DNA of 47,070 nt from Bdellovibrionota bacterium (GTDB taxonomy: Bacteria > Bdellovibrionota > UBA1018 > CAUJDS01): NCBI GenBank assembly GCA_963169695.1, contig CAUJDS010000032.1, positions 1 through 47,070 of the forward strand. The letters are read 5' to 3'. Both the position numbers and the translations under genes were made by a program. The notes beneath the pieces were generated by a model. It was given only the letters and a program-made list of their open reading frames with translations, was not told the DNA's origin and did not search any database. This document shows positions 13,649 to 46,430 of the stretch, piece after piece (positions within the stretch are counted from its first letter, which is position 1; every line of letters starts with the position of its first letter).

Positions 13649-13994
13649 GTCCCCAAAAGCATCCAAGAAGGCACCTGCGACTAAGCAAGCCGCAGCCCCA
13701 GTGATCGAGGAAACGGCCGTACTGGAGGCGTCTGAGGTTGACTCGGATGCGGATGAATTTGAATCAGCTGGAGGCTCCTCACGGTCCTCTGGCGGCATGG
13801 ATGCCGGCCTCACTGCGGCAATGGCAGCTGGTGCAGCCTCTTCGTCCCTGAAAAATTTTCGCCACCACCCTGATATGGAAAATTTCTACCGCTTTATCTT
13901 TGAAAACGACCTTCGCTATGAGGCCCTGACCATTGTGGATGCCATCATCAAGGAAAAGCTGGAAACTCGCGCAAAAACCAAGGCAAAACACTAA
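13629..13994 (+). CDS. small protein co-encoded with the sigma-54 activator, unknown function
   Basis: 121 residues starting inside the end of the activator gene (20-bp overlap). The first ~25 residues are Lys/Ala/Pro-rich ([20 protein letters not shown]). An acidic Ser/Glu/Asp stretch follows, then a Gly/Ser/Ala-rich spacer, and a compact C-terminal ~50 residues (NFRHHPDMENFYRFIFENDL...) that look folded and helical. The low-complexity first half suggests a disordered tail. The overlap points to co-translation with the activator and possibly a role in its output. No family recognised. Confidence 0.65.
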   Translation: MTTKKSKSPKASKKAPATKQAAAPVIEETAVLEASEVDSDADEFESAGGSSRSSGGMDAGLTAAMAAGAASSSLKNFRHHPDMENFYRFIFENDLRYEALTIVDAIIKEKLETRAKTKAKH

Positions 13995-14059
13995 CGATCC
14001 GTGTCTTGCACTCCATCAGCTTCGTAGGGTAAGGTCACCTCTTCGCGTTGGAGGTTGCC

Positions 14060-15208
14060 ATGAAGACCTATTTGTTGACTCCCGGCCCTACCCCCGTACC
14101 TGAATCAATCTCAGCGATTTTCGCCAAGCCGATCCTCCATCATCGAACGCCCGAGTTTCAGGCTCTTTTTCAGGAAGTCAAAGTGGGACTCCAGGTCGTC
14201 TTCCAGACGCAGCAAGATGTGATGCTTTTGGCGAGTACGGGTACCGGTGCAATGGATGCGGCCGTTTCCAATATTTTTAAAAAAGGCGACAAAGTCCTTA
14301 CCGTCAATGCCGGAAAATTTGGCGATCGCTGGTCCAAGATCGCACGAACTTACGGTCTAGAGACGGTAGAGATCCTCGTGGAGCGAGGCTCGGCTGTTAC
14401 AGGTGCACAAATCCAAGATTGCATCAAAATGCATCCGGATGCGAAAGCCATTCTTTTCCAGGCGCATGAGACTTCCACGGGGGCGATGATGCCTGTTCAA
14501 GAGATCTGTCAAATAGCGCAAAAGCACCAACTCCTTACGGTCTGCGATGGAATTACTGGTGTTGGAGTTTTCGACCTTCCGATGGATCGATGGGGAATCG
14601 ATGTTCTCTTGACTGGTTCGCAGAAGGCTTTCATGCTTCCGCCTGGACTTGCCTTTATCGCATTAAGTGAAAGGGCTTGGCAGTACGCGAAGGATTCGGA
14701 TCTTCCGCATTTTTACTTTGATCTAAAGAAGGAAAGAAAAGCACTCGAAACTCACCAAACCGCGTGGACACCCGCCATCTCTCTCATTCAGGGCCTGCAA
14801 GAGAGCCTTCGTATGATTCGGGCTGAGGGACTGGAGAAAGTATTTAATCGGCACAAGACCTTAGGTCAGTGTGCACGCAAAGCAGTCGATAGCCTTGGAC
14901 TCGAGCGATTGGCCAAAGATTGCCCCTCGCCAGCGATTACGGGATTTTGGGTGCCCGAAGGCATAGACGGCAAGGCCATACCGAAGCTTATGCGCGATCG
15001 TTATGGAGTCACCATCACAGGCGGGCAGGATGAACTGACCGGAAAGATTATTCGAATTTCTCATCTGGGCTATGTTGGGATTTTTGACTTAACCACAGCT
15101 TTTTCATGTCTCGAGTTGGTACTGAAAGAATTGGGGCATGGATTGAGTTTTGGAACTTCAGTCGGTGCGCTCCTCAAAGAGTATGCTTCAGAGGATAGAG
15201 CGAAGTGA
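14060..15208 (+). CDS. class V aminotransferase (serine-pyruvate / alanine-glyoxylate type)
   Basis: A fold-type I PLP enzyme: LTPGPTPVPESI at the N-terminus, ASTGTGAMDAAVSN (cofactor-phosphate binding), VCDGITGVGVFDLPMD (Asp contacting the pyridine ring) and LTGSQKAFMLPPGLAF with the Schiff-base lysine. This is the signature of the small-subunit hydrogenase/AGXT-like group, whose members transaminate serine, phosphoserine or glyoxylate. Its stop is fused to the GTG start of a PGDH-like dehydrogenase, so phosphoserine aminotransferase in serine synthesis is the most economical role. I start at the ATG at 14060 because GGAGG (14050-14054) precedes it; an in-frame TTG at 14048 would overlap that site. 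Confidence 0.88.
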   Translation: MKTYLLTPGPTPVPESISAIFAKPILHHRTPEFQALFQEVKVGLQVVFQTQQDVMLLASTGTGAMDAAVSNIFKKGDKVLTVNAGKFGDRWSKIARTYGLETVEILVERGSAVTGAQIQDCIKMHPDAKAILFQAHETSTGAMMPVQEICQIAQKHQLLTVCDGITGVGVFDLPMDRWGIDVLLTGSQKAFMLPPGLAFIALSERAWQYAKDSDLPHFYFDLKKERKALETHQTAWTPAISLIQGLQESLRMIRAEGLEKVFNRHKTLGQCARKAVDSLGLERLAKDCPSPAITGFWVPEGIDGKAIPKLMRDRYGVTITGGQDELTGKIIRISHLGYVGIFDLTTAFSCLELVLKELGHGLSFGTSVGALLKEYASEDRAK

Positions 15209-32315: not shown

Positions 32316-32342
32316 TTGACTAAATATATCCAGATTTATAAT
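32316..32342 (+). promoter_or_regulatory. promoter before toxin 1
   Basis: TTGACT (32316-32321), 15 bp, then a perfect TATAAT (32337-32342). It overlaps the longest possible ATG at 32341, which argues that translation starts at 32365 instead. The spacer is 2 bp short of optimum. Confidence 0.5.
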
Positions 32343-32364
32343 GAACGGTCCAGGAGCCTTAATC

Positions 32365-33321
32365 ATGAGCGATCCATTTCTGTTTTATGTAGTACAGCCA
32401 GGAGATACGCTGACGGCGATTGTACGCAACTCGTATCCGTCACTTGGTGCGCAGGGCGAAGTTGCGATGATTCAAGCCATCGCGGGCAATAATGGCCTGC
32501 GCTCGGCGAACCACATCCAAGCGGGGCAGTTGCTGATGCTGACGAGTGCACCGAGCTCGGTGTCGGCTTCCGTTCAGGTTTCTTTTCAAGAGATAAGTCG
32601 GCAATGGAACAGTCAGTTCCCTAAGGATCGAGAGCGAGCGTTGAGCTTGATGCAAATTGATAGTCCGTTGGACTTTCTGAGCGGCGCAAATGGTGGACTG
32701 AAGAGTGCAAATAAGCAGGCCGCCAAGTTGTTGGAGAATTATTTGTCAGAATACGGTGGGTTTGCTCGTGGTGAAATTTCTCATTCAGATTTCTACAATA
32801 AGGTACGCCCAAGTTGCGTAAGAGATTTTGATCAGATCTTCAAAAAAGATCTGAGATCTCTCGCTTTCCAGAACGGGGAAAAGTCGACCTCCAAATTTTT
32901 CAGGGTTCGCCCAGGCGCGAAGAATATCCTGGCAACGGGAGACCTATCCGACGTTGGAAGGGTGTCAAAAACCTTCAGAAACGTTTTTAGAGTCAACTCG
33001 CTCCTAAAGGTAGGTGGCGTGGCGATGACTGGATTGCAGCTAGTTAAAGCATGTAATGAGATTTCTAATGCGGACAACCAAGTTGCAAAGAACCAAATCT
33101 TTTCAAAGTCCATCGGAAATCTGGTGGGTGGGGAAGTAGCCCTGTATTTTGCAGTTGGATTGGTCTCCGGCCCGTTAGGATGGGGCACTATCTTGTTCGT
33201 AGCAACTGCCGTGACCTTGGGAGCGTATGGAACGGGAGAGGTAGTTTCTTATATTTATGACTCCTATGGAAATAAGCGGGACATTGTTGGAACTCTAGGG
33301 GTAGATCGGGTTTGTCACTGA
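32365..33321 (+). CDS. toxin 1 candidate: LysM domain + C-terminal hydrophobic glycine-rich domain
   Basis: 318 residues from the ATG at 32365, which has AGGAG 8 nt upstream. Residues ~7-62 are a LysM peptidoglycan-binding domain (FYVVQPGDTLTAIVRNSYPS ... IQAGQLLML). A helical middle follows. The last ~100 residues contain hydrophobic segments GGVAMTGLQLVKACNEI and GNLVGGEVALYFAVGLVSGP and a Gly-rich third (VAVTLGAYGTGEVV-like). The C-terminal layout (helix, A/N-D-x stretch, glycine-rich hairpin, GP) recurs in toxins 2 and 3. The next gene follows with no gap. I infer a membrane-inserting toxin. It has no signal peptide, so delivery by a secretion machine not in this window would be needed. 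A structural or cell-wall role cannot be excluded. Confidence 0.6.
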   Translation: MSDPFLFYVVQPGDTLTAIVRNSYPSLGAQGEVAMIQAIAGNNGLRSANHIQAGQLLMLTSAPSSVSASVQVSFQEISRQWNSQFPKDRERALSLMQIDSPLDFLSGANGGLKSANKQAAKLLENYLSEYGGFARGEISHSDFYNKVRPSCVRDFDQIFKKDLRSLAFQNGEKSTSKFFRVRPGAKNILATGDLSDVGRVSKTFRNVFRVNSLLKVGGVAMTGLQLVKACNEISNADNQVAKNQIFSKSIGNLVGGEVALYFAVGLVSGPLGWGTILFVATAVTLGAYGTGEVVSYIYDSYGNKRDIVGTLGVDRVCH

Positions 33322-33792
33322 ATGACTGAATTAAAGGATCATCCAGTATCGATTCTCATAGCAGTCTCATTCGCGGTATCGTTTGCGCTCATAATTTTAG
33401 TGAAACTATTGCATCTGACGCTTTTCTTTCTTATGCCAAAGCCTGCCTTTGAGGAGATGAAGCGTCAGTATCGCCGGTGGCGACCTAGTACAAAGTCATT
33501 TGAGTCGGAGTACCTTTTCTATAAATCCAGCACGAAGGGCAATTTCATCTATTTGGGTTTGATGTTTCTAAGATTTTGCTATGCAGTCTCAGGTCAGCGC
33601 AAGATTCATCACAATCTCTTTGGGGGTTACGACTTTAAGCCTCTTCTTCCGAGGGCCTATTTGTTTTTCGTCAGGATGATGGTGGTATTTATTGTCTTGG
33701 CTTTTCTGGGAATAGTTCTAGCGATTTTAGGCCTGGCATATCTCCAATATATGGGGGTGCTGGATGAGAAGTACTATCTGTTTCGATGGTAG
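33322..33792 (+). CDS. candidate immunity membrane protein 1
   Basis: 156 residues, beginning with the ATG directly after the toxin 1 stop codon. Two hydrophobic regions: ILIAVSFAVSFALIILVKLL and VFIVLAFLGIVLAILGLAYL. Between them are the motifs MPKPAFEEMKRQYRRW and GGYDFKPLLPRAY, which recur in the orphan at 35353 (MPKIAFEEMKRRFHHW, GGFDFKPLLTRSY). An inner-membrane partner matches a membrane-acting toxin, as in colicin immunity. Immunity function is inferred from position, size and topology. Confidence 0.6.
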   Translation: MTELKDHPVSILIAVSFAVSFALIILVKLLHLTLFFLMPKPAFEEMKRQYRRWRPSTKSFESEYLFYKSSTKGNFIYLGLMFLRFCYAVSGQRKIHHNLFGGYDFKPLLPRAYLFFVRMMVVFIVLAFLGIVLAILGLAYLQYMGVLDEKYYLFRW

Positions 33793-33868
33793 AATGCGGA
33801 TCACTGTAGCTTGAGTGGCTTACAATTCGGCTGGTCACAGTGAGTTCGCTCTTACTGTTGAGTAGAAC

Positions 33869-33948
33869 TAGGTACGGAGCTAACTTCAACTAGCCAGTGC
33901 AAAATTTCTAACGCTGCAAGTCCCATAAGTAAGTCCGTACCCACGATA
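33869..33948. repeat. dispersed element, copy R3
   Basis: 80 bp: left end TAGGTACGGAGCTAACTTCA then ACTAGCCAGTG; right end GCAAGTCCCATAAGTAAGTC then CGTACCCACGATA. Outer 7-14 bp are inverted repeats. Lies between immunity 1 and toxin 2. It is the most diverged full copy. Confidence 0.8.
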
Positions 33949-34001
33949 AAAGCCATACAACTTGACTTATCGCATTAAATTACGCTAAAGCCTGGGAATC
34001 A

Positions 34002-34817
34002 ATGGCAGATATCAAAGATTTTTTCTTAGAATGGAATAGCTGTTACGCCAACGAGGAGCCCCTCCCCGATTTCAGGCCTCTCCATAGCGAAGACGAGTGG
34101 GATACGATTGGCTTTCTCAATGGACTGGCATCAGCGAGTGACTCGGTAAGAAGCGCTTTTAATAATTACATCGGCGCTAGTCGACTTCATCTGGTCGTGC
34201 AAGACATCAATCGCGCACTCAGAGAACAAGCAGTGCTTTCTCGTTACGGACTTGTTTCTCCAGCTATCTCCGCTCAGATTGCCCGCAACAGACTAGAACT
34301 CAATTCGATCTTAAGTAACAAACTCAACAACCTCGGACAGGACTACAATCGAGCTATACGGATGGAGCGAAATCGGTTGGCCAATTTGGCCAAACGAGTC
34401 TCCAGCAACTCCCCTAAACCAACCCAACAGTCTCAATTCAATGTGCGCACCCCTGATCAGCTCTCGCCTTTGCTTCACTGGAGAAACGGAAAAGTCACAG
34501 GTGCCTTTCTTGTTGTCGATTTGGGTTTTCGCGGTCTGGATATTTTGAGGGCGGACGACAAAGTCAAAGAATCTCTCGCTCAGGCTGCTGGCTTTACGTC
34601 CAACCTTGCTGGTGGAGCTGCCGGTGCTAATTTGGGGGCACGGATGCTTGCCATGAGACTTTTTGGCCGAACAGTCTGCTCGATTGCTTTATTGGGGTGG
34701 ACCGGTCCGGCGTCGCCCTTTATTTGCAACGTTTTGATACCGGCCGGAGCGGGGTATATTGGATCAAGACTTTTTGAAGATTGGACATCAGCCAAAACTA
34801 GAGATTTGTTGCAATGA
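34002..34817 (+). CDS. toxin 2 candidate: 'DIKDFF' N-terminal module + glycine-zipper C-terminus
   Basis: 271 residues. The N-terminal 48 residues (MADIKDFFLEWNSCYANEEP ... LASASDS) form a unit that is duplicated at 46216. A helical region follows (residues ~55-130; VSPAISAQIARNRLELNSIL) that resembles the helical part of toxin 3. From ~160 comes the shared C-terminus: GAFLVVDLGFRGLDILRADD, AGGAAGANLGARML, then GPASPFICN ... GAGYIGSRLFEDW, which lines up with toxin 3. Gly spacing suggests membrane-packing glycine zippers. GGGAA precedes the start, and the ATGA overlap with the next gene fits toxin-immunity coupling. I do not recognise the N-terminal module. Confidence 0.6.
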   Translation: MADIKDFFLEWNSCYANEEPLPDFRPLHSEDEWDTIGFLNGLASASDSVRSAFNNYIGASRLHLVVQDINRALREQAVLSRYGLVSPAISAQIARNRLELNSILSNKLNNLGQDYNRAIRMERNRLANLAKRVSSNSPKPTQQSQFNVRTPDQLSPLLHWRNGKVTGAFLVVDLGFRGLDILRADDKVKESLAQAAGFTSNLAGGAAGANLGARMLAMRLFGRTVCSIALLGWTGPASPFICNVLIPAGAGYIGSRLFEDWTSAKTRDLLQ

Positions 34818-35200
34818 CAACACAAGGTGAACTGCTTTTTCTATTCTTTTTTGGCGTGCCCGCCGTCATCACATTTCTTTATCGAAAAACAAACACTCCG
34901 CCGCCTATATTGGCGCTGACTGCATTCATCTGCTTTGTTCTCTTATTTTTCACCTTTTTTTTAGACCTCTTAGCCATTCACGACTTTGGCTATGGGGGCT
35001 TTGAACTTCCAGACGGCCCCCATGGCGGGATCGTCACTCGAAGCTCCTACTACCTTGCAAAATACGGACGCGTCCTGGTACGAGAGCTTTGGTTTCAGAT
35101 TTTATTTTCGATCTTTACAGTTTGGATCACTTTCCGCATCGTTAGTGCTTTCAAAAAAAGCCGCTCCAAACCCTCTCAACAACCAAAAAAACCCTGGTGA
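34814..35200 (+). CDS. candidate immunity membrane protein 2
   Basis: 128 residues with about three hydrophobic segments (LLFLFFFGVPAVITFLY; LALTAFICFVLLFFTFFLDL; FQILFSIFTVWITFRIV) and a basic tail. Its ATG overlaps the toxin 2 stop codon by 4 bp. No sequence similarity to immunity 1 is visible, so the two partner types seem to be independent families. Function inferred from context. Confidence 0.55.
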   Translation: MTTQGELLFLFFFGVPAVITFLYRKTNTPPPILALTAFICFVLLFFTFFLDLLAIHDFGYGGFELPDGPHGGIVTRSSYYLAKYGRVLVRELWFQILFSIFTVWITFRIVSAFKKSRSKPSQQPKKPW

Positions 35201-35227
35201 ACCTCCTAAGCCTGGTTCTTATTTATA

Positions 35228-35319
35228 GATAGGTACGGAGCTAGTTTTAACTCGCCAGCGAGACACGGCACGTCTAAATGACGTGATAAGTCTCACAAGT
35301 AGGCTCCGTACCTACGATA
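35228..35319. repeat. dispersed element, copy R4
   Basis: 92 bp. The ends are perfect inverted repeats: TAGGTACGGAGC (35230-35241) and GCTCCGTACCTA (35303-35314). The internal block CTAGTTTTAACTCGCCAGCG is identical in R5. The right arm shares AAGTCTCACAAGTA with R5. Lies between immunity 2 and the orphan. Confidence 0.85.
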
Positions 35320-35352
35320 TACATAGATCGAGTTTGCTAGTGGGAGTAGTTC

Positions 35353-35787
35353 ATGATTGAAGCTGTCTATATCTATCTTGGAGTATTGGTTGGCACGTTG
35401 CTCATTGGTAGTATCGTGCTTATTGCAGTAATGCTCACATTGTATCTGACCATGCCTAAGATCGCATTTGAGGAAATGAAGCGCCGATTTCATCACTGGG
35501 ACGGGTCCGCGAAAAAACTTGTCCCCATACCTTGGTTTTACGAAAACTGTTCAAAATGGAGTTGGATGCATTTGTCCGTTCCATTTTTTCTTTTCTGCGT
35601 AGGAACTGCGGGACTTAAGCGTCCAATCCAGTTTCGCTTTGGTGGATTTGATTTTAAGCCCTTGCTCACAAGATCCTACTGTATTCTTACAAAAGTCTTC
35701 GTTGCTGCAATTCTTTTAAATGGCACTTCACTCGTTCTAATGATCCCTGCCTACATATATCTCGAATGGATCGCCAAAGTATCTTGA
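35353..35787 (+). CDS. orphan paralogue of immunity protein 1
   Basis: 144 residues with two hydrophobic regions (VYIYLGVLVGTLLIGSIVLI; VAAILLNGTSLVLMIPAYIY). It shares MPK-AFEEMKR and GG-DFKPLL-R with the 33322 product. No toxin gene precedes it: repeat R4 comes directly before and R5 directly after. It looks like an orphan immunity gene kept to protect against a toxin 1 relative, or one left after its toxin was lost. GGGAG lies 7 nt before the ATG. Confidence 0.6.
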   Translation: MIEAVYIYLGVLVGTLLIGSIVLIAVMLTLYLTMPKIAFEEMKRRFHHWDGSAKKLVPIPWFYENCSKWSWMHLSVPFFLFCVGTAGLKRPIQFRFGGFDFKPLLTRSYCILTKVFVAAILLNGTSLVLMIPAYIYLEWIAKVS

Positions 35788-35794
35788 ATCGTCC

Positions 35795-35817
35795 ATTGTA
35801 CGCATTGTACATTGTAC
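35795..35817 (+). repeat. triplicated ATTGTAC heptamer
   Basis: ATTGTAC occurs at 35795-35801, 35804-35810 and 35811-35817, directly before repeat R5. The last two copies are in perfect tandem. Could be a target-site or slippage scar. Confidence 0.6.
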
Positions 35818-35821
35818 GACT

Positions 35822-35892
35822 TAGGTACGGACCTAGTTTTAACTCGCCAGCGCATCAAGTTAATGTATCAAGTCTCACAAGTAAGTCCGTAC
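35822..35892. repeat. dispersed element, copy R5
   Basis: 71 bp: TAGGTACGGAC at the left, CTAGTTTTAACTCGCCAGCG internally (identical to R4), AGTCTCACAAGTAAGTCCGT then AC at the right. Lies between the orphan immunity gene and the convergent toxin 3 pair. Confidence 0.85.
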
Positions 35893-35904
35893 GTCCTTCC
35901 TTTG

Positions 35905-36423
35905 CTACCTGGCTTTGATTGAAAGTCTTATCCTAACGCCAGAGTACATACTTCGTAGTTCATCTACCCACAGCCAACCAGTTCTGATCCTCTCGAAGAA
36001 GCTGGCAAAGTTTCTTCTAGTTCTTGAATCAATTTTAATGCCGAGAACGCCCCGCTTCCCAAACTCAACAAAGATCTCGCTTGGAGTTTCATCTAGTACC
36101 TTCCCCAATGACGGACTGAGGGAATCCGTTAAATCGGGTGATGTATGCATCTCAAGGACCTCAAATTTTTGATTAAGAGCCACGATACAAATCGTACAGT
36201 CGTCCCAAGTATGATTGAGAAATCCAAGTAAATACCCGTTCTGAATCTCAAATTGAAAGATGGTTTCCCCTAACAAAGGGAAGCGATCGTTCACGACTTC
36301 GTCTCTATAATATAAATTTGTGTACCCGCTCGTGCTCTCGTTCACCGAGTACCCACCCAAATCAAATGAATTCTTAAAATCAAATATACGCTTTAAGCCA
36401 TTCAACGGGATAGCCACACCCAA
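35905..36423 (-). CDS. candidate immunity protein 3 (soluble)
   Basis: 172 residues, no signal peptide and no clear TM segment: a mixed alpha/beta protein (LLGETIFQFEIQNGYLLGFL, IFVEFGKRGVLGIKID). It would be cytoplasmic or membrane-peripheral, unlike the other two partners. The start appears to be the TTG at 36423 (GGAAG upstream), giving a 22-bp overlap with the toxin 3 gene; a GTG at 36417 is an alternative. No family recognised. Immunity is inferred only from the overlap and cassette position. Confidence 0.5.
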   Translation of the reverse strand: MGVAIPLNGLKRIFDFKNSFDLGGYSVNESTSGYTNLYYRDEVVNDRFPLLGETIFQFEIQNGYLLGFLNHTWDDCTICIVALNQKFEVLEMHTSPDLTDSLSPSLGKVLDETPSEIFVEFGKRGVLGIKIDSRTRRNFASFFERIRTGWLWVDELRSMYSGVRIRLSIKAR

Positions 36424-37130
36424 AGCATATCACTTCCATAGGAGGCTAGCGCCCCTCCAATGAGCAATCCCAACGGCACACAAATAAATGCTCCTGGTCC
36501 ACAAACCGCTCCGGCCCAACCACCTAATGCGGCACCTTCCAATCCGGATATTAGTCGACTTACCGAGGCCCCGGCCGCGATTGTTTTGTCCTTTGCTTGG
36601 CAAACGTCGTAAACAACCAAGCCCAAGGTAGCAAGTGCTAGCACGCCGCCAGCCTTTCCCAGCGCATTTACAATCACATTGATTCGTGTTCTGGCATTTC
36701 CCGCTCCAGTCAGTACCTTGAATAGAACAATTTCCCTCTGAACTGCCTGAGACAGTGATGAAAATTTCACTCCAAACGTTTTCACGCTATATTTCTCCAG
36801 CAAAAAGTCCAGCGAATACCCAGAAGGCTTTATTGCAAGCGCCAATGTGCGACCAACATCACTGCTTCGCGATCGAACCAAGGCGAGCAGCTCATTTCTT
36901 GCACGACTAGCCAATGCAGCGGCTTGCTCTATCGACAAAACCCCACTGTTCACTTTGATTCTCAAGTCGTTCACCACTTGTGAAATAAGCCGCTGATAGG
37001 TTCTACGAGCCGACATATCCCGGATGAATCGAGTGGAAAAGTTACCAAACGTTGATTCTAACTGATGGACCGCTACATCAAAAGATGTGTCGCCACTGGA
37101 AGAACGCACTGAAACCTGATTAGTTGACAT
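36402..37130 (-). CDS. toxin 3 candidate: helical domain + glycine-zipper C-terminus
   Basis: 242 residues. The helical N-terminal part contains GVLSIEQAAALASRARNELL and RTLALAIKPSGYSLDFLLEK, a pattern I associate with a widespread proteobacterial family of hypothetical proteins. The C-terminus GGVLALATLGLVVYDVCQAK, then DKTIAAGAS, GGWAGAVCGPGAFIC and LIGGALASYGSDMLW, matches toxin 2 at GP-x-FIC and GA-x3-GS-x5-W. Repeated small residues every four positions suggest a glycine zipper, the feature thought to drive helix packing in some pore-forming antibacterial effectors. The ATG has no good Shine-Dalgarno sequence. Its orientation is opposite to toxins 1 and 2. Confidence 0.6.
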   Translation of the reverse strand: MSTNQVSVRSSSGDTSFDVAVHQLESTFGNFSTRFIRDMSARRTYQRLISQVVNDLRIKVNSGVLSIEQAAALASRARNELLALVRSRSSDVGRTLALAIKPSGYSLDFLLEKYSVKTFGVKFSSLSQAVQREIVLFKVLTGAGNARTRINVIVNALGKAGGVLALATLGLVVYDVCQAKDKTIAAGASVSRLISGLEGAALGGWAGAVCGPGAFICVPLGLLIGGALASYGSDMLWVWLSR

Positions 37131-37403
37131 ATTTGGTTTAATACAATGCCATTACGCAGTTTGTCAAACATTAAAGAAGCAAATGCCTTGGGGGAGCGAG
37201 AGCAACAAGTGCTACTCTTTTTGTTCGCCTTTGAATGCCGTAAGTCATTGTTTCAGTTCACAGCCTAAAGGAAGAAAGAGTTTGAGCCAATTTCTTGACT
37301 GACTCTTTCCTTCAACCTATCCGGCAATATCTCCCGCTCCGCGGGAGCGGGACTTAATATTGATGTGTTATCGACCGAAATGCAGTGAGGAGGAGGGCTA
37401 CGA
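37131..37403. other. 273-bp divergent intergenic region with a GC-rich perfect hairpin
   Basis: Separates toxin 3 (minus) from the ligase-PilZ-cyclase operon (plus). It holds a 9-bp GC-rich hairpin with 3-nt loop at 37332-37352 (TCCCGCTCC-GCG-GGAGCGGGA, outer pairs T-A), no T-run, in otherwise average DNA. A divergent promoter region is expected; I could not place hexamers with confidence. Confidence 0.55.
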
Positions 37404-38417
37404 TTGCGACGAATTGGTATTGAACATGAATTTTTTTTGCTCCGCGGAAACAGTAGCCCTTCCGTTAAGGATATAAGCGAGTTTCTCAATGAGTTACTAA
37501 GATTCGGTTTCAAAGTTCGGTCACGCTATGAGGATGGCCTGATCAAGAGCGTCGGAAAGGAAATTCCTGAAAGGGGGTATTTTTCTGTAAAGAATGATTT
37601 TTGCACCCACGTCCTAGAAGTCGCCACACCCCCTTCAGAATGTTTTATGGAGCTAGTTTCGTGGCTGGGCGATTGTTTGGAAGCATTCAAGGATAGCAGC
37701 CGTGTAACAGGATTAACCGCGCTAAGTGCGGCTTCACTGGATACTTTGCCGACTGGGATCCTTATTGATACGACCCATCCCCGGTATGGCGCGTTTGATC
37801 GCCTCCCACTTTCCGTGGGTGATAAACGTTTCCAGTACCGCTTCTTTACTACACTTATGTGCGCCACACAGTTCCACTTTGAATGTGGCGATCGCGATCC
37901 CTACACTGAAGCACGAATGAGCTATGTCTTCGAGTTTTTGGTGCCTTATCTGTTTAGTAACAGTGGGAGAGTCCTCGGTGAATCGGCCCACTGTGTCCGG
38001 CCCTTGGTTTGGCGTGATAGCTTGCCGAAGTCCTACTGGCTGAACTGTATTCCAGTGCCGGCACCTCTAACACGCCAAGAAGTCTCAAAGTGGTCTCAAG
38101 ACTATGCGTCTTTTATCCGAGACTACTCTTTTGCCAAGGTTACCGATATAGGAACTATTGAATTTCGTGGCGGCTGCAGTCAGCCCGATATTTCCAGATT
38201 GTCTGGCCTCTTGAAATTGAGGCTTCTTATCTCTAAGTTAGTTAGCGAGAACACTCGCTATCTCTCTGAACTGGATCGCGATGAGTATTTTTCTGTTTGC
38301 CAAACAGGCGAATTGAGCCAGCGTCAGATTGAGCTCTTATCTACTTATCGGGCACGATTAGAAGATGCATTGGGATGTGATGTTCCAATTCGGCCCTACA
38401 AAGGCGGTCGGCCGTGA
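37404..38417 (+). CDS. GCS2-type carboxylate-amine ligase (glutamate-cysteine ligase-like)
   Basis: 337 residues. MRRIGIEHEFFLLRG at the start is the GIExE Mg/ATP motif of the GCS2/YbdK group (Glu7, Glu9). THVLEVATPPSECF, CATQFHFECGDRDPYTEARM and VTDIGTIEFRGGCSQPD follow the group's order and its metal/ATP-binding glutamates and arginine. Such enzymes use ATP to join a carboxylate to an amine, as in gamma-glutamyl-cysteine synthesis, and also occur in peptide-tagging and natural-product loci. The start is TTG at 37404 with a strong GGAGGAGGG at 37389. It overlaps the PilZ gene by 4 bp (GTGA). Substrates are unknown; the operon context suggests signalling rather than glutathione synthesis. Confidence 0.75.
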   Translation: MRRIGIEHEFFLLRGNSSPSVKDISEFLNELLRFGFKVRSRYEDGLIKSVGKEIPERGYFSVKNDFCTHVLEVATPPSECFMELVSWLGDCLEAFKDSSRVTGLTALSAASLDTLPTGILIDTTHPRYGAFDRLPLSVGDKRFQYRFFTTLMCATQFHFECGDRDPYTEARMSYVFEFLVPYLFSNSGRVLGESAHCVRPLVWRDSLPKSYWLNCIPVPAPLTRQEVSKWSQDYASFIRDYSFAKVTDIGTIEFRGGCSQPDISRLSGLLKLRLLISKLVSENTRYLSELDRDEYFSVCQTGELSQRQIELLSTYRARLEDALGCDVPIRPYKGGRP

Positions 38418-40300
38418 AAGTCGGTTCTGTCATCGATAAAAAGCGGCTGGTGCTCGGAGTTTTTCGTGAAGCGGAGGTTTACGGCACGGATGTCTGCTGC
38501 GCTCTTAAGAATGGGAAAACTGTCCATTCAAAGGTTTCTTTAGGTACAAATGATTGCCTGGTTCTGGAGGTCGGTACCTCTGTTTCAAAGGGAGAGAGCA
38601 TCCTTCTATATCTTCAGGTGCCAGAAGGCGTTTGTGAAGGCGAATCGCTCGTACTTAGTGTTAATGGACACGAAGCAATAGTATCGTTACCTCAATCGAT
38701 TTCTGTTAGTGAGCAGCGCGATCGTCCACGAACGCAACTAGGCGAAGGGCAAGTCTCAGACTATCACGTAGATATAGCAGGTGCCGGAGTACATATATTT
38801 GGGAGCCTCAGTGATATTTCTGATGATTTCCTTCGCGTTACATCGTCTCTATCAGTTCATGATTTAGAACCCGGATGCGAAGTCCAAGTGTCTGGGGTAT
38901 CCCAAGGAAAGGCAAGTCTTTCATTACATGGCACTGTGCACTTCGTACGTTGCTTTAACGGAAGATCCGACATCGTAATTCGGCGTACGGATATCTTAGA
39001 AAAAAACAAAATAATTAGTCGCGGTAATCGGCAAAATCTTAGCAGCGCGGCTACCGTCAAACTTCAGTGGGTTGGTATCGGGAACCTTGTGTCTCATCTC
39101 GTATTCAAGAACGTTTCTCTACGGGGATTCTGCGGTCAATTGATTGATGATGAGAAACTTACGATCCTAGTTGGTAGTCGGGCATACTTAGCTGAGATGG
39201 GCTTGTCCGCTACTTTGATCTGGAAGTCGATTAATGCATACGGCTTTGATTTGCAGTTTAATACTCAGGAAGCATTAAACACCTGGGCGGATGCGGTTTC
39301 CAATAGAGTTATTCAGCGAAGCCAAAGTAGTTCGCGTCCTATCACTCGGGATTTGATTCGACTCATGGTACGGTCTGGGTATCTAACAGGACTAAAGGCC
39401 AGCATCTATAAGTCCCCGGACGCTCGTATAGCCGCAATGAATTTGTCTACTTCGGAGTTGTGGCTTCGCCGGACCTTTTTTTTGGGGCCTGTTACACAAG
39501 CTGCGTCACATGTAAGCGTTCTGAGAATATCCGATATTGGATGGATGGTCCAGGAGTTAGGAAGTGTAGCTCCAAATGAGGATGCAGGTACACTCACACT
39601 CGATACGGCCTTATGGCGTCTCCTCGAGCAAGAACTTCCTGGGGTTATGCAGTCCAGTTCGTTGTATGCGTTGTATGAACCTAAATCCGAGTTTAACAAA
39701 CGATATTGGGTGAGAAGCCATTCCGGCACCACCGAAAGTCAGGTCAGTGTTTTTCCCTGGAAGGACATCGAACTTTTATCTTCCAAAATGCGTTCCGGCT
39801 TGGGGAGATTTGAATCTCTTAAAATTCGTCTCCCGACCATAGACACTTGGGCAAGTGACTACAAACAGATGGAGATGAACCATAACAAAGTACTTCTTGG
39901 TGCTATGGGCCTTTTCGAAGAGACCTACCTTTCTCCTCAGTTGGCCGATCAGATTCATGCGTCCGGCTTAATGTTTCAAAGGCGTGTAGCGATGGTTGAG
40001 AACAATGGAAAAATTATTGCCGTTTTGGCCCGTTTTGGACTGCCAAGTCTATCGAACCTTACTCTTTCCGCCGATCATCTCTGGGTATCTTCTTCGTCTG
40101 GAACGTCATTGAAAGATTTACTTGATTTGATCAAAGCATCAAATGAAATTCTTGATCTTAACAAGGGCGCGTTACAGGTTGTTATGAATTTTCAGGACAC
40201 CGGTTTTCTGTCGACAGTGGATTTACCGGGGTTAAAAAAATTGCGCCTTCTGAGAATACCTCTTAAGCATTTGAAGGAATTTCTTGAGAATGCAAAATAG
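38414..40300 (+). CDS. two-PilZ-like-domain protein with a large C-terminal region
   Basis: 628 residues, GTG start in the ligase stop. Two PilZ-like units can be read: the first with RDRPRTQL (RxxxR) at about 103 and DISDDFLRV at about 137; the second with SRGNRQNLSSAATV at about 203 and NVSLRGFCGQL (NxSxxG) at about 235. The C-terminal ~300 residues (RDLIRLMVRSGYLTGLKASI ... LRLLRIPLKHLKEFLENAK) are not recognised; an acyltransferase-like fold is possible. The second PilZ unit has the better binding motif. It probably reads c-di-GMP and may connect that signal to the ligase before it or the cyclase after it, with which it overlaps by 11 bp. Confidence 0.65.
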   Translation: MKVGSVIDKKRLVLGVFREAEVYGTDVCCALKNGKTVHSKVSLGTNDCLVLEVGTSVSKGESILLYLQVPEGVCEGESLVLSVNGHEAIVSLPQSISVSEQRDRPRTQLGEGQVSDYHVDIAGAGVHIFGSLSDISDDFLRVTSSLSVHDLEPGCEVQVSGVSQGKASLSLHGTVHFVRCFNGRSDIVIRRTDILEKNKIISRGNRQNLSSAATVKLQWVGIGNLVSHLVFKNVSLRGFCGQLIDDEKLTILVGSRAYLAEMGLSATLIWKSINAYGFDLQFNTQEALNTWADAVSNRVIQRSQSSSRPITRDLIRLMVRSGYLTGLKASIYKSPDARIAAMNLSTSELWLRRTFFLGPVTQAASHVSVLRISDIGWMVQELGSVAPNEDAGTLTLDTALWRLLEQELPGVMQSSSLYALYEPKSEFNKRYWVRSHSGTTESQVSVFPWKDIELLSSKMRSGLGRFESLKIRLPTIDTWASDYKQMEMNHNKVLLGAMGLFEETYLSPQLADQIHASGLMFQRRVAMVENNGKIIAVLARFGLPSLSNLTLSADHLWVSSSSGTSLKDLLDLIKASNEILDLNKGALQVVMNFQDTGFLSTVDLPGLKKLRLLRIPLKHLKEFLENAK

Positions 40301-43058
40301 GTACTACTCATTTCGTCATCTTGTCACTGCCTTACTTTTGTATCTTCCCGTGGCTACAGTACTGTCTCGCGATCCTGTGCTGCGCTATTTGGTTTCGCTA
40401 ACCCATACGGATACTGTAAGCGTTTCCAATGAATCTCCGCGTAATTGTGTTGCTGATTTATGTTACAAGGATACAACGGTGGTTGTGCCGGCCTCCTTGG
40501 CAAAGGTAAGTCGTTTGGCTATTGGCGTTCACAGTGCCTTTATCGACGTTGATGTATTGGATGGTCTCTCTAGGTTAGACGCCAAGAGGCCAATAGACCA
40601 CACTTGGTTTCGATTTCGCGTTTTTCCTGTTTCTTCAAAGTCCGTAGTGCTTCGGACCGTTGGTCACGCAGATTCTAAGAAACTTGGCATTGAATCTAAC
40701 GTTGTCTACTTAGGAGATGAGCAAAAATTACGGAAGCTTGGTTTGGTTTTCGAACTGTTTAATATTCATTTGTACGGCATTCTTGGGTTGGTGGCTTTAT
40801 GTTTTGGCTTGCTATTGATTACCAGCGATCGCTCCAACAGCGATTTTGGAGTTCCACGGTTTGGACTGCTAACCTTTCTGACGTTTGGAGCACTAATTCT
40901 GTATGGCCATGTGGCGGATTCGATTGTTACGCTCCTCGGAGTTAATTCAGACGTATCTAGTAGTTTAGGTAGGGCTTTTTTCGGCGCACTTTTGCTCTTG
41001 CATTTCTGGGACCGGAAATATTCGGTGCATGTGGCACTTTTTTTTCTTTTATCGTTCTGTGTGGCTTTGTCGGTCCCACAACTTCAGGCGATTTTTATAT
41101 ATAAGATCTATCGGTTTTTGGTTTTAGGTCTTTGTCTCCTCGTCTTTTTTCGTGCAATTAAACGTGACCGCCTGGCGATTTGGTTTTTTCCTCTTATTGC
41201 TTTGGACTCTCTAGTCATTTTCGGAATTTGTGAAGCTCGTTCGGGAGTTTATCTTAGCCCGTTAGGCTTATTTGGTTTATTGATTTCTTCTGAGTTTAAT
41301 CGAGCCGCTCGAGTTATAAATCAGCACCGCGAATGGTATCGCAGAAATTTTGTTTCTCGTCATTTGGATTCGTTGCGAGAGAAACAGCAAGCCTCGATTG
41401 AGGATTGGAAGGAACTGTTTGCTCCTATCGGGAGAAGTCTTAGTGTGATTACAAAGGCAAGGAAGGTTGGCATAATCTATCTTGGCCCTGACGGTCCGGT
41501 AATTCTCTCCTTCTGGCACGGGCGTTTAGCGGTCTACAAAGATGGGAAAATACCTCCGGTATTTGCGCGCGTTTTTCAGACAAAGGAACCACTGTGGTGG
41601 ATTCATGCCAGCGAACTCGAAAAACTTAACGGGCGCCCGATATCGCCAATCCCTCATTCTTATGAGAGCGATTACGCCGTAATAATTCCTATTGTTTGTG
41701 GAGGTGACGTATACGGGGCAATCTCTTTAACCGACTTTGATTCAGTTGAGCGCATTATAGAAGACAGTGATAGCAGAACGAGTATACAAGGCACTATTTC
41801 TAGCTTTGTGGACTTATTATCTACGAAACTAATTCAAGTAAAAGAGAAAAGCAACAGTAACACCCTACGGATGTCGAACGATATAGTTAGCCTCATGGGT
41901 AGCCAGAGTATTGAAAGTGTGCCTTTTTCCGGTTTAATGGCACTTTACTGTGAAAACATAAGCCGTGTATTGAGCTGTAAGACATTGTTCTTCAAGTTTG
42001 ATTCTCGCTCTAGGGGACTTGAACTTGTGGCATTCCATGGTTTCGTCGAGTCCTCTATCTCGATCTGGAAAGGCATTCCTTTCAAGGCACGGCTCGAAAA
42101 CAAAATAAGTCCTTTTGCTATAGCGGTCAATGAAAGTAGGCCGATATGGATAGATGATATAAGGCCGTTTTTCAACTTACTTACCGACGAGAGTATTACG
42201 GCATTGAAAGCATCACAAACACGGTCTTTCTTTTGCGCACCGGTTTGCTTCGGGGAGGCTACGTTAGGGCTGGTCGCATTGCTAGATTCTGATACTAAGA
42301 AACTCGACTCAGACACCGAGGCAGTGATGAGGCTGCCCCTGGAACACCTGGGGTTTTCGACCCATCATAAAGCTACTGGCACAGCCTTGGCCCGTTTTGC
42401 GGACTCCGAAGTTGTCGGTTCGCTGGTGCAAAATGGTAAAGCCAATTTTTTAGGTTCTACCTATTCCGGAACACTGTTCATTGCTGATCTGCGAGATTCA
42501 AGCCTTGCTGCACACGCCAAGTTCCGTGATCCGAGTCTTTACGCCAAAGCGTTGTCTCGATTTTATTTGAGCGTTGAGAGCGTAGCGGCCGAATATGGCG
42601 TGGATATGGATCGAACCGCTGGAGATGGCATATTGGCTTTTCTACTGAAAGGGTCAGAAACTAACAGCCTGGCGTTTGCTATTAGTCTTTTGAAAAGGGT
42701 AAAACTTGCAGGCTTTTCAACTATGGGTACTAGTGACGCGATTGTAACCGTGCACTTCGGAAGCGTTTTTCGTGGTGTGCTAGGAACTAGAAAAAATCTT
42801 TCTCGGGATATCGTTGGCGCTGACTTAAATGACACGTTTAAATTGGAAAAAACGGGCAAATCTATGCCAGGAACGCAAATGGTTCTCTCGTCCGCTTACA
42901 TCGATAGTCTTCCACATCTCTTGGTTCCTAAAGTACGGTCGCTTTGTGTGTCGGAATTTACTTGTCCTGACACAAGACTTCGCTGGTATTCGATTGGTGA
43001 AGAATCTGTGGTATCTCTTGAGGCCCTCCTATTTAGCTTGGAAAGGAAGGCTGGGTAG
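40290..43058 (+). CDS. membrane-anchored GAF-containing class III nucleotide cyclase
   Basis: About 922 residues from the ATG at 40290 (AAGGAA upstream). One N-terminal hydrophobic helix, an extracytoplasmic segment (~30-155), then about seven TM segments (~165-345; 7TMR-like). Two GAF-like regions follow (about 400-520 and 555-690; YAVIIPIVCGGDVYGAISLT and FFCAPVCFGEATLGLVALLD), then a C-terminal class III cyclase domain. The first metal Asp is in FIADLRD (Asp733) and the second in AGDG (Asp779). The usual substrate Lys is Arg775, the base-reading position is Ala844 in VGADLN, Asn847 is kept and the triphosphate Arg is Lys851. It may make cAMP, cGMP or another nucleotide, or be an altered, sensing-only cyclase. 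Confidence 0.75.
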   Translation: MQNRYYSFRHLVTALLLYLPVATVLSRDPVLRYLVSLTHTDTVSVSNESPRNCVADLCYKDTTVVVPASLAKVSRLAIGVHSAFIDVDVLDGLSRLDAKRPIDHTWFRFRVFPVSSKSVVLRTVGHADSKKLGIESNVVYLGDEQKLRKLGLVFELFNIHLYGILGLVALCFGLLLITSDRSNSDFGVPRFGLLTFLTFGALILYGHVADSIVTLLGVNSDVSSSLGRAFFGALLLLHFWDRKYSVHVALFFLLSFCVALSVPQLQAIFIYKIYRFLVLGLCLLVFFRAIKRDRLAIWFFPLIALDSLVIFGICEARSGVYLSPLGLFGLLISSEFNRAARVINQHREWYRRNFVSRHLDSLREKQQASIEDWKELFAPIGRSLSVITKARKVGIIYLGPDGPVILSFWHGRLAVYKDGKIPPVFARVFQTKEPLWWIHASELEKLNGRPISPIPHSYESDYAVIIPIVCGGDVYGAISLTDFDSVERIIEDSDSRTSIQGTISSFVDLLSTKLIQVKEKSNSNTLRMSNDIVSLMGSQSIESVPFSGLMALYCENISRVLSCKTLFFKFDSRSRGLELVAFHGFVESSISIWKGIPFKARLENKISPFAIAVNESRPIWIDDIRPFFNLLTDESITALKASQTRSFFCAPVCFGEATLGLVALLDSDTKKLDSDTEAVMRLPLEHLGFSTHHKATGTALARFADSEVVGSLVQNGKANFLGSTYSGTLFIADLRDSSLAAHAKFRDPSLYAKALSRFYLSVESVAAEYGVDMDRTAGDGILAFLLKGSETNSLAFAISLLKRVKLAGFSTMGTSDAIVTVHFGSVFRGVLGTRKNLSRDIVGADLNDTFKLEKTGKSMPGTQMVLSSAYIDSLPHLLVPKVRSLCVSEFTCPDTRLRWYSIGEESVVSLEALLFSLERKAG

Positions 43059-43854
43059 ATCTTTTTATTTTCGGTATTTCTTTGAGTAGGAACGATGCTA
43101 CCAAAACGCCGCCAATTGCTTCTTTCATTCCTACATTGCTTTTTATTACTAAAAATTCGATTAGCAGCGTTGCAGGTATTCGGATCAGGAGCAATGTCGA
43201 GACTTGTGTGTAGCTTAGGTGTTTCCATATACGCATATACCAAAGCTGGGTTAGGATCACTAGCAGTGCAAAGGGCCAAGTTTTTAATGGAATGTGTGTA
43301 TCAACATTAAGACCGTAACACACGCCCACTGAGATTGGCGTGGCAACGAGAAGCATTGCAGAAGAATGAGCGCAAAGGTCGAATGATGATTTTGCCTGGC
43401 GGTGGGTAGAAAGACTGTTCATTGCAGAGAATATTCCTCCTACAATCGGCAGGAGCGAAAAACCAGACAACAGGGAAGCCAAAAGTATCAGTACTACAGT
43501 ATAATACGCGTGCGCGTCGCGGGGCATTTTGTCCTGAGACTTTTTAGCATTCATAACAATTTGTCCCGTTAAGAAGCCAACCGTTAGCGAGGTCACTGCA
43601 TTGTACGAAGAGCTCACACTCTGTGCATAAAAAACGATGGAATTGGTAGCTACGAATGCGCATGCGCGTAGAATATTGAGTTTTGTAAAAGCAATTCTTC
43701 GGGTTCCATTTGGAGAACAAATTAATAATATTAGTCCCGCGATGCCTGACGCAGCAGGGAATATATCCAGTCCGCCCTTCGTCCCAAAGTGGTTGAAAGC
43801 AGGATAGATAATGCTGATAAAAAGTCCGTAGGACACTACAGAAAACACTTTCAT
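43033..43854 (-). CDS. DMT/EamA-like permease
   Basis: 273 residues with about ten hydrophobic segments (VSYGLFISIIYPAFNHFG; GIAGLILLICS; VTSLTVGFLTGQIVM; TWPFALLVILTQLWYMRI; EAIGGVLVASFLLKEIPKIK), a size and layout like drug/metabolite exporters. The C-terminal GGVLVASFLL fits the terminal EamA helix. Convergent with the cyclase gene, overlapping by 26 bp at the 3' ends. Substrate unknown; possibly the exporter for the ligase's product, which is only a guess. Confidence 0.6.
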   Translation of the reverse strand: MKVFSVVSYGLFISIIYPAFNHFGTKGGLDIFPAASGIAGLILLICSPNGTRRIAFTKLNILRACAFVATNSIVFYAQSVSSSYNAVTSLTVGFLTGQIVMNAKKSQDKMPRDAHAYYTVVLILLASLLSGFSLLPIVGGIFSAMNSLSTHRQAKSSFDLCAHSSAMLLVATPISVGVCYGLNVDTHIPLKTWPFALLVILTQLWYMRIWKHLSYTQVSTLLLIRIPATLLIEFLVIKSNVGMKEAIGGVLVASFLLKEIPKIKRSTQPSFPS

Positions 43855-44177: not shown

Positions 44178-44615
44178 TTAGGGCCCAGAGGCCGAAACAA
44201 ATTCAAATTCCACATATTTTTGGATTTTTTTAAAATCTGTCTCATTCTCAGTCACCAAAAGAGCGTTATTTTCTTGGGCGGATAGGGCGATTAAAATGTC
44301 CCAGGTGAGGCGCCTTCGTGTTCGAGGCTCATTGGCTTGTGTTTTAGACATCTTCTGCATTATTTGCCCGGCTATGATGAAATTATCATCGGAAAATCCA
44401 ATAAGGGGGATAGTCTTTTGATGTTGTTTCAATGTGCTTTCTTCGAACTTAGTTTTTGCGCCTGCCCGAAGTTCCATTAAAACGATCTTACTTAAAGTGT
44501 AAAGGTAGGCCCCTTGTAAAAAGCACTCGATCTTGCGCTCGTAATCTGGCGAGCGAAGGAGGTTAAGGTAGACGTTGGAGTCAAAAAAGACTGATTCAGG
44601 CTTCTTGATGTTCAT
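44178..44615 (-). CDS. PIN-domain toxin (VapC-like)
   Basis: 145 residues of the PIN endoribonuclease fold. The acidic metal site is visible: FFDSNVYLNLL (Asp at about 12), VLMELRAG (Glu at about 48), LTWDILIALSAQE (Asp near 105) and LLVTENETDF (Glu/Asp at about 122). VapC toxins cut tRNA or rRNA to stop growth until antitoxin is restored. Its start overlaps the antitoxin gene by 20 bp. Downstream it ends in the gene-free stretch. Confidence 0.85.
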   Translation of the reverse strand: MNIKKPESVFFDSNVYLNLLRSPDYERKIECFLQGAYLYTLSKIVLMELRAGAKTKFEESTLKQHQKTIPLIGFSDDNFIIAGQIMQKMSKTQANEPRTRRRLTWDILIALSAQENNALLVTENETDFKKIQKYVEFEFVSASGP

Positions 44616-44908: not shown

Positions 44909-44943
44909 GCAATGGGTTTGTCAGGCGAGCTTTCGGACGGTAA

Positions 44944-45022
44944 ACCCACAAAGATACCCTTAAATACCCTATAAGATCGCTTTATGTTGACCTATAGGGT
45001 ATTTAAGGGTATTTTTGTGGGT
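44944..45022. repeat. near-perfect 30-bp inverted repeat abutting the Fic start
   Basis: The left arm (44944-44973) starts ACCCACAAAGATACCCTTAA and the right arm (44993-45022) ends TTAAGGGTATTTTTGTGGGT; 29 of 30 positions pair, with a 19-nt loop. Each arm contains the motif ATACCCTTAAATACCC or its complement. The right arm ends 2 nt before the ATG at 45025, so any Shine-Dalgarno (GTGGG) is inside the stem. Candidate operator, attenuator or recombination site. Confidence 0.8.
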
Positions 45023-45024
45023 AT

Positions 45025-46119
45025 ATGAGAGCTCCAAAAATAAATCTAATCCCGCGTGAAGTGCTAAGTCTCATTTCTGAAATTGATGAATTTAAAGGTC
45101 GCTGGAGGGCCACTCAGGTACTTGCGCCTGATAAGCTTTTGGCACTTCGGCAGGCAGCTACAATTGAGTCAGTGGGCTCTAGCACTAGGATTGAGGGAGC
45201 AAAACTTAGCAATTTGGAGATTGAAGCGCTCCTTAGAGGTGTAAAAAGTTATTCTTTTAAGTCTCGGGATGAGCAAGAAGTCGCAGGTTACGCAGAAGTA
45301 ATGGAGATGATTTTTTCGTCCTATGAGAGCATCTCTTTTTCTGAAGGCCACTTAAAACAACTGCATAATGTTTTATTAAAATACAGCGTTAAGGATGAGC
45401 GCCATCGTGGCGAGTATAAGAAATTTTCAAATAGCGTAGAAGCATTTGGACCAGACGGGAAAAGTAAGGGAGTGATTTTTCATACCGCTAGTCCTTTTGA
45501 GACTCCAAAATTGACTCAAGAGCTTATCGATTGGACGAATGCTGAGTTTAGGCAAAAAGAGTTGCATCCGTTGATTGTGGTGAGCCTATTTGCAGTGGTT
45601 TTTTTACATATCCACCCATTTCAAGATGGCAATGGACGACTGTCACGAGCACTAACGACACTTCTTTTGTTAAAACATGGCTATACTTATGTGCCTTATA
45701 GTTCATTTGAGCGAGTGATAGAGGAGAATAAAGACTCCTATTATATGTCGCTACGCAAAGCTCAGGCTGAACTTGAGATTTCTAGCGAGAATAAGGGTAT
45801 AAAGCGAGGCTCTAAGTCAATGAATGAAGGAGTGTTTGCATGGGTCATTTTTTTCCTAAAATCCATGCAAAAGCAGAAATTAGTACTTGAAGGCAAATTA
45901 AATACGGAACTCGCAGCGAGTAGTATCCCTCGGCTTTCTCTTGAGATCATTGAAATCGTGAAATCCAGAGGTTCTATTACCTTAGGCGAAACGCTTAGGT
46001 TACTTAAAGCCAATCGCAACACACTAAAGGTTCATTTTCGAAATTTAGTGAAATCTCAAGTGCTTGAAAGAAATGGTGTTGGACGCGCGATCTATTACAA
46101 GATGAAGTCAAAATTTTAG
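45025..46119 (+). CDS. Fic-domain AMPylator-like protein with N-terminal autoinhibitory motif
   Basis: 364 residues. SVGSSTRIEGAKLS (about residue 50) fits the (S/T)xxxE(G/N) inhibitory helix of class II Fic proteins, whose Glu blocks ATP. The catalytic loop HIHPFQDGNGRLSR (about 195-208) has the full HPFxxGNGR core. A C-terminal winged-helix-like region (GSITLGETLRLLKANRNTLK, about 315-350) may bind DNA. Fic proteins transfer AMP or another nucleotide part to a target protein; the internal inhibitor suggests self-control. The start abuts a large inverted repeat. No Doc/Phd-type partner gene is adjacent. Confidence 0.88.
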   Translation: MRAPKINLIPREVLSLISEIDEFKGRWRATQVLAPDKLLALRQAATIESVGSSTRIEGAKLSNLEIEALLRGVKSYSFKSRDEQEVAGYAEVMEMIFSSYESISFSEGHLKQLHNVLLKYSVKDERHRGEYKKFSNSVEAFGPDGKSKGVIFHTASPFETPKLTQELIDWTNAEFRQKELHPLIVVSLFAVVFLHIHPFQDGNGRLSRALTTLLLLKHGYTYVPYSSFERVIEENKDSYYMSLRKAQAELEISSENKGIKRGSKSMNEGVFAWVIFFLKSMQKQKLVLEGKLNTELAASSIPRLSLEIIEIVKSRGSITLGETLRLLKANRNTLKVHFRNLVKSQVLERNGVGRAIYYKMKSKF

Positions 46120-46215
46120 GGACAATGCCAGGACTCAACCCCAAATGGGAGTGGCTGGACGATTAACGATACATCTTAATCTATCGCATCAAATGAAACT
46201 AAAGCCTTGGAATCA

Positions 46216-46430
46216 ATGGAAGATATTAAAGACTTCTTCTTAGAATGGAATAGCTGTTACGCCAACGAGGAGCCCCTCCCCGATTTCAGGTCTCCCCATA
46301 GCGAAGACGAGTGGGATACGATTGGCTTTCTCAATGGGCTGGCATCAGCGAGTGACTCGGCAATTCGCGGTCTGGATATTTTGAGGGCGGACGACAAAGT
46401 CAAAGAATCTCTCGCTCAGGCTGCTGGCTT
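46216..46430 (+). repeat. duplicated segments of toxin 2
   Basis: 46216-46360 duplicates 34002-34146, and 46364-46430 duplicates 34528-34594 exactly. Both are in direct orientation about 12 kb apart, so recombination between them could delete the intervening accessory genes. Confidence 0.8.

Follow-up and report, generated by a model that had tools for sequence, protein, structure and literature searches.

What does an enzyme that joins carboxylates to amines do in one operon with a second-messenger receptor and a cyclase-like membrane protein? The question is raised by positions 37404–43058 of a 47,070-nucleotide stretch of DNA from a Bdellovibrionota bacterium (contig CAUJDS010000032.1 of assembly GCA_963169695.1; the whole stretch is referred to as the window), where three open reading frames (ORFs) follow each other head to tail on the plus strand. 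The answer we favor, with a probability of roughly 0.4, is that these genes form a co-evolving, patchily distributed module of signalling proteins and an enzyme, in which a sensor and a receptor of the cyclic di-GMP (c-di-GMP) type gate the synthesis of a small molecule by an amide ligase. The three genes are the following.

37404..38417 (+): gene 1, predicted GCS-superfamily carboxylate-amine ligase, 337 aa, TTG start
38414..40300 (+): gene 2, YcgR-like tandem PilZ protein with a C-terminal region X (“PilZ-X”), 628 aa, GTG start
40290..43058 (+): gene 3, protein with an extracytoplasmic N-terminus, multiple transmembrane segments, GAF and a cyclase-homology domain (CHD), 922 aa from ATG 40290

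Genes 1 and 2 share the 4 bp GTGA at 38414–38417, which contain the TGA stop of gene 1. The ORF of gene 3 runs from 40284 or 40290 to 43058 (924 or 922 aa), and its overlap with gene 2 is 11 bp if translation starts at ATG 40290, which has GAAGGAA on its 5' side; genes 2 and 3 both end in TAG. A preliminary description of the locus had given exactly these overlaps and had proposed that the three proteins are made together. With the gene pair or trio recurring in 14 genomes, mostly with overlaps, the interpretation as one overlapping transcription and translation unit is supported.

Used alone as query, gene 1 was found in 7 of 55 genomes of the order (other loci included). An alignment of its first relatives matched in 16 of 369 genomes of the phylum, two of which (G277 and G363; loci L050 and L051) are outliers nearer to ordinary GCS2 proteins. 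Within the class, 9 of 58 genomes have a ligase match, and presence is patchy within genera. Profile mapping placed a PilZ protein directly after the ligase at 15 of the 17 loci of the ligase clade (the window, L009, L011–L015 and L041–L048), in 14 genomes from seven families of one phylum; the exceptions are L010, which lies at a contig start, and L049, where the ligase is degenerate. The cyclase-like gene joins the pair in 12 of the 14 genomes, mostly downstream and at L043 and L045 upstream, while L048 retains a mere fragment of it. Overlaps of 1–23 bp recur at most of the trio and pair loci, and gene order and overlaps are retained across several families at protein identities of 13–30%. 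The pairwise distances of the three proteins were correlated over 12 loci (Mantel; ligase-PilZ 0.94, ligase-cyclase 0.81, PilZ-cyclase 0.80; permutation p ≤ 2e-4). An adjacency restricted to the window genome is thereby excluded, and the partnership of a ligase with a c-di-GMP-receptor-type protein, which the preliminary description had regarded as unexpected, is real and conserved. It is very improbable that the genes lie side by side without a functional link, through drift or on a common mobile island. The patchy distribution and the position of the window copy in a low-GC region flanked by direct repeats would fit such an explanation, but order and overlaps have persisted together with co-divergence in several families, and the recurrent overlaps largely refute it.

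The nearest relatives of the window trio include L011 and L009, which belong to two other families. Such close relatives in other families and the patchy presence would fit either a transfer of the trio as one unit or a set of old subtypes. A scan of named genomes retrieved only four relatives, none of them additional to those found before and all from metagenome-assembled genomes labeled Bacteriovoracaceae, Bacteriovorax, Bdellovibrionales and Lysobacteraceae (the last probably mislabeled), and these labels place the system in Bdellovibrionota-type bacteria. Searches of plasmid and viral sequences for the ligase and PilZ-X gave no matches, and a literature search found no published description of the trio or of a GCS2-PilZ pair. 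Reduced copies were also observed. L049 8385–9671 (−) is a second ligase copy whose catalytic residues are lost, and L048 7765–11077 is a decaying second trio with a cyclase fragment, an internally deleted ligase and an intact PilZ-X; both genomes have a fuller trio. PilZ-X is split over several frames at L012 6112–8071 (−) and L041 6855–8854, as is gene 3 at L041 8827–11590, reflecting either assembly errors or broken genes.

The identity of the ligase required a comparison of structures and profiles, since its clade is invisible to current family models. The Pfam GCS2 model (PF04107) gives no match to gene 1, so that this annotation was rejected; no other Pfam or NCBIfam family matched either, and TIGR02050 reached only E = 0.19 and 11 bits against a cut-off of 176 bits. 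The broader assignment to GCS-type ligases stood. An AlphaFold2 model computed from 16 homologs (pLDDT 81, pTM 0.83) had as its best Foldseek match in the PDB the plant glutamate-cysteine ligase (GCL) 2gwc (E = 4e-13, TM-score 0.70), followed by YbdK (8e-10), bacterial GshA and then Dop, PafA and glutamine synthetases, and hhalign against the GCS2 proteins of the phylum yielded E = 5e-14 (98%) for the GshA type and 1.5e-10 (97%) for the YbdK type. In the GCS superfamily (GshA/YbdK), metal and ATP are carried by an ExE pair, one His and a C-terminal Glu-x-Arg. The window ligase has E7xE9, E72, H158 and E253-F-R255, and this set is kept in 15 of 16 aligned members wherever the respective stretch is present; L049 lacks H158, E253 and R255. 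Because of the predicted fold and the conserved catalytic residues, gene 1 very likely encodes a carboxylate-amine ligase that is active and ATP-dependent and belongs to a clade not described before. It shares with the GCS2 ligases (plant and bacterial GCL, YbdK) the fold (TM-score 0.60–0.70) and the layout ExE ... H ... T-x-E-F-R, but differs from them in lying below Pfam/NCBIfam detection at about 15% identity, in the shorter protein of the window and in nearly always adjoining PilZ-X.

Two other roles of gene 1 have to be weighed against these data. Plain glutamate-cysteine ligation of the glutathione type, co-transcribed with signalling genes by happenstance, would agree with the GCS fold, with a plant GCL as the closest solved structure and with a window genome that has no Pfam GCS2 gene. 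A GSH-S_ATP search also found ATP-grasp genes in that genome, although this model is non-specific and matches generic ATP-grasp proteins as well. Judged from the sequences, this role is nevertheless unlikely: glutathione synthesis would be a core function, yet the ligase is missing from most genomes of the class, and G335 has a strong canonical GCS2 in addition to a ligase of the gene 1 type. Its distance from GCS2 proteins of the GshA as well as the YbdK type, with no Pfam or NCBIfam GshA match, and the near-invariant pairing with PilZ-X speak against this role too. Slightly less probable still is that the ligase senses an amino metabolite, as an allosteric protein or a pseudo-enzyme, and that the true output is cyclic-nucleotide and c-di-GMP signalling. 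The signalling partners and the L049 paralog without its catalytic residues fit such a sensor, but the retention of these residues in the other members argues for catalysis.

Gene 2 would supply the receptor in the proposed module. Its parts are as follows.

38414..38713 (+): YcgR-N-like domain, aa 1–100, pLDDT about 85 (profile, predicted structure)
38711..38998 (+): PilZ domain 1 with R102/R106 and D134/S136, the motif Gly being Phe in the window (profile, alignment)
39047..39268 (+): PilZ-like domain 2 with NVSLRGF, S235/G238/F239 (alignment)
39311..40297 (+): C-terminal region X, aa 300–628, alpha/beta (predicted structure)

The first ~160 residues match YcgR (YcgR-N plus PilZ) at E = 0.0044 in a sequence profile search, the N-terminal part of the model matches the folds of MrkH, VCA0042 and YcgR down to E = 5e-10, and the PilZ-X relative at L105 matches Pfam PilZ directly (E = 3e-9). 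These comparisons identify gene 2 as a PilZ protein of the YcgR-like kind; the preliminary description had already named the middle gene a PilZ protein. The RxxxR of PilZ domain 1 is invariant in the family, and most members have an intact (D/N)xSxxG. Gene 2 thus has both N-terminal domains of YcgR, MrkH and VCA0042 with RxxxR and mostly DxSxxG, but it adds the second PilZ-like domain and a C-terminal region of roughly 330 residues without a family, and it has no tie to flagella or transcription. Region X is conserved among PilZ-X proteins; the model of the entire protein is poor past the PilZ part (pLDDT 58). By eye only, region X looks GNAT-like; an assignment to GNAT or FeeM was not adopted, as it received no support from Pfam, NCBIfam or the PDB, and hhalign against GNAT/FeeM was negative, with a positive control that was itself weak. 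In another family of the phylum, L118 685–2157 encodes a protein in which a match to FeeM N-acyl-amino-acid synthase comes after two stretches that look PilZ-like by eye.

PilZ-X relatives also occur without the ligase. At L104 (3740–9435) one is found with a gene 3 of the same type and a KAS III-type ketosynthase gene, at L105 (5532–9424) another follows KAS III and methyltransferase genes (with an acyl carrier protein and a radical SAM protein by eye), and at L106–L108, all in family f28, the relative adjoins a V4R-GAF-class III cyclase. Since PilZ-X is found without the ligase but with a cyclase-type protein, these two form a core pair, with the ligase as their commonest third partner. The f28 pair differs from the trio in the absence of a ligase and in its cyclases, which carry the full canonical residue set.

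Gene 3 has an extracytoplasmic N-terminus and multiple transmembrane segments according to hydropathy, followed by these domains.

41442..41732 (+): GAF-type stretch 1, aa 387–483 (Pfam GAF_2, E = 3e-5)
42114..42326 (+): GAF domain 2, aa 611–681 (Pfam GAF, E = 1.4e-5, which passes the cut-off)
42465..42902 (+): class III cyclase-homology domain, aa 728–873, with D735 and D781; Lys853 replaces the transition-state Arg

The CHD matches 6fht (E = 5e-4, single sequence) and CyaB 3r5g (E = 1e-7, profile), and both metal aspartates (D735 and D781 in the window) are kept in every copy of gene 3. The GAF-CHD order and the two aspartates are those of class III cyclases of the CyaB type, from which gene 3 is set apart by its multi-transmembrane extracytoplasmic sensor, by the absence of the base-selecting Lys in most copies and by altered transition-state residues, considered below. 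The CHD could be a cyclase of a non-canonical kind or a relay that binds nucleotides. At L181 (6770–8653) the multi-transmembrane half of gene 3 is fused to a histidine kinase in place of GAF-CHD, and the sensor part is therefore modular.

Further genes next to the trio point to cyclic nucleotides. Homologous fusions of a PP2C phosphatase with a cyclic nucleoside monophosphate (cNMP)-binding domain adjoin gene 3 or the trio in several genomes. Such a gene overlaps gene 3 by 4 bp at L179 (6948–11224), follows it after 49 nt at L014 (4881–6134), lies 120 nt from the ligase at L012 (9343–10632) and encodes a protein near the trio at L015 (about 1639–2859). In G021 a relative precedes the ligase by about 0.2 kb, in G039 one lies at a distance of 4.7 kb from gene 3, and L043 has a lone cNMP-binding gene (13905–14231) next to gene 3. 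PP2C-cNMP phosphatases are common within the order. Five of its trio or ligase-PilZ genomes have a full-length one (G009, G015, G021, G030 and G039), and in four of these it lies within 5 kb of the operon, which is far above chance (about 10 kb in 3 Mb). The sole PP2C match in the window genome stops short of the cNMP domain. These neighbors argue against a simple decay of the gene 3 CHD, and the PP2C-cNMP and lone cNMP-binding proteins are candidate downstream effectors.

Accessory genes bear on the product of the ligase. The operon at L012 extends into genes for a lipocalin-like protein, a Cupin_8/JmjC oxygenase and a transporter-like membrane protein; exporter-type neighbors are present at L043 and L010 (EamA) and at L042 (MFS), and mutually homologous methyltransferases at L009 and L043. 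A small-molecule product is favored because some loci add such modifying and export genes. The main rival is post-translational modification, in which the ligase would join an amino compound to a protein carboxylate, for example of gene 2 or gene 3, or would act like a Pup ligase or deamidase, and so switch a signalling protein. We consider this a possibility to be kept in mind, though a doubtful one. The fold of gene 1 also matches PafA and Dop, the enzyme is co-conserved with two signalling proteins and not with a fixed metabolic pathway, and the PP2C-cNMP neighbors suggest a regulatory circuit. However, the match to the pupylation enzymes is the weaker one, the best matches (GCL and YbdK) being small-molecule ligases. 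Moreover, neither a Pup-like small acceptor nor a proteasome context was noticed near the trio, and some loci carry the metabolic and export genes described above.

For the gated synthesis of a small amide we infer a signal flow, a product and protein-protein contacts of the following kind. Gene 3 would sense an envelope or extracellular cue and relay it via its CHD, in connection with the cyclic-nucleotide signalling of the PP2C-cNMP-binding partner genes. Gene 2 would read c-di-GMP and provide the coupling, probably through binding to the ligase, gene 3 or both, and region X may contribute an acyl-transfer step. Gene 1 would be the gated output, using ATP to convert a carboxylate into an acyl phosphate and then joining it to an amine. 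The resulting small amide could be a gamma-glutamyl-type compound, used as a signal, osmolyte or protectant, and might be modified further and exported in some lineages. We propose only tentatively that the trio represents a new pathway, in which a membrane receptor with an unorthodox CHD acts together with a c-di-GMP receptor to gate a GCL-fold enzyme that makes a new amide-linked signal or modifies signalling proteins. If true, it would be a direct bridge from second messengers to amide ligation, uniting GCS-superfamily ligation with receptors of the c-di-GMP type and of the cyclic-nucleotide type, which are not known to work as a set. The parts are of known kinds; what seems not to have been described before is the way they are combined, the clade of the ligase and the altered cyclase domain. 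Each of the three components is open to a separate assay.

Several observations weigh against a gated small-molecule ligase. The transition-state Arg is replaced by Lys or Ala in all 13 copies of gene 3, and the transition-state Asn is lost in 11 of the 13, so that the window and L009 alone retain it. The label “nucleotide cyclase” given in the preliminary description is therefore unsafe on sequence grounds: the cyclase homology and the metal aspartates stood, but activity as a cyclase is doubtful. In the window, the first PilZ motif is incomplete (R102xxxR106 and D134xS136 are present, with F for G, as in L009), and region X matches no family or function. At most loci, the window among them, no additional gene of clearly biosynthetic type is present, so that small-molecule synthesis rests on a minority of them. 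Finally, every homolog stems from one phylum, many of them from metagenome assemblies, and a species history common to all three genes may explain part of their co-divergence.

The boundaries of the operon are marked by the following features.

37332..37352 (+): terminator-like hairpin in the gap that separates the operon from the divergent gene upstream (consensus scan; 9 pairs, 7 of them GC)
37389..37397 (+): strong Shine-Dalgarno sequence of the ligase gene, GGAGGAGGG, before TTG 37404 (sequence)
43033..43854 (−): putative multi-transmembrane membrane protein without a family match, convergent to the operon

With a divergent neighbor upstream and a convergent one downstream, the operon consists of the three genes only. 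The hairpin is the likely upstream boundary; the number of terminator-like sites that the consensus scan found in the region is near chance level.

Direct repeats flank the 12-kb stretch that contains the trio (33955–34167 and 46169–46381, 213 nt, 88%; 34528–34594 and 46364–46430, 67 nt, 100%), and GC drops there from about 0.49 to 0.43–0.47. This stretch is possibly an island, or a duplication whose second copy has been deleted. At 32341–37130, LysM/glycine-zipper proteins (32341–33321, 34002–34817 and 36402–37130) alternate with small membrane proteins, of which those at 33322–33792 and 35353–35787 look homologous by eye; the cluster resembles effector-immunity pairs, LysM alone being confirmed. 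Downstream of the trio, a PIN-domain protein is encoded at 44178–44615 (−) and a Fic/DOC protein with a helix-turn-helix-like C-terminus at 45025–46119 (+), at whose start an inverted repeat with 33-nt arms (44941–44973 and 44993–45025) ends.

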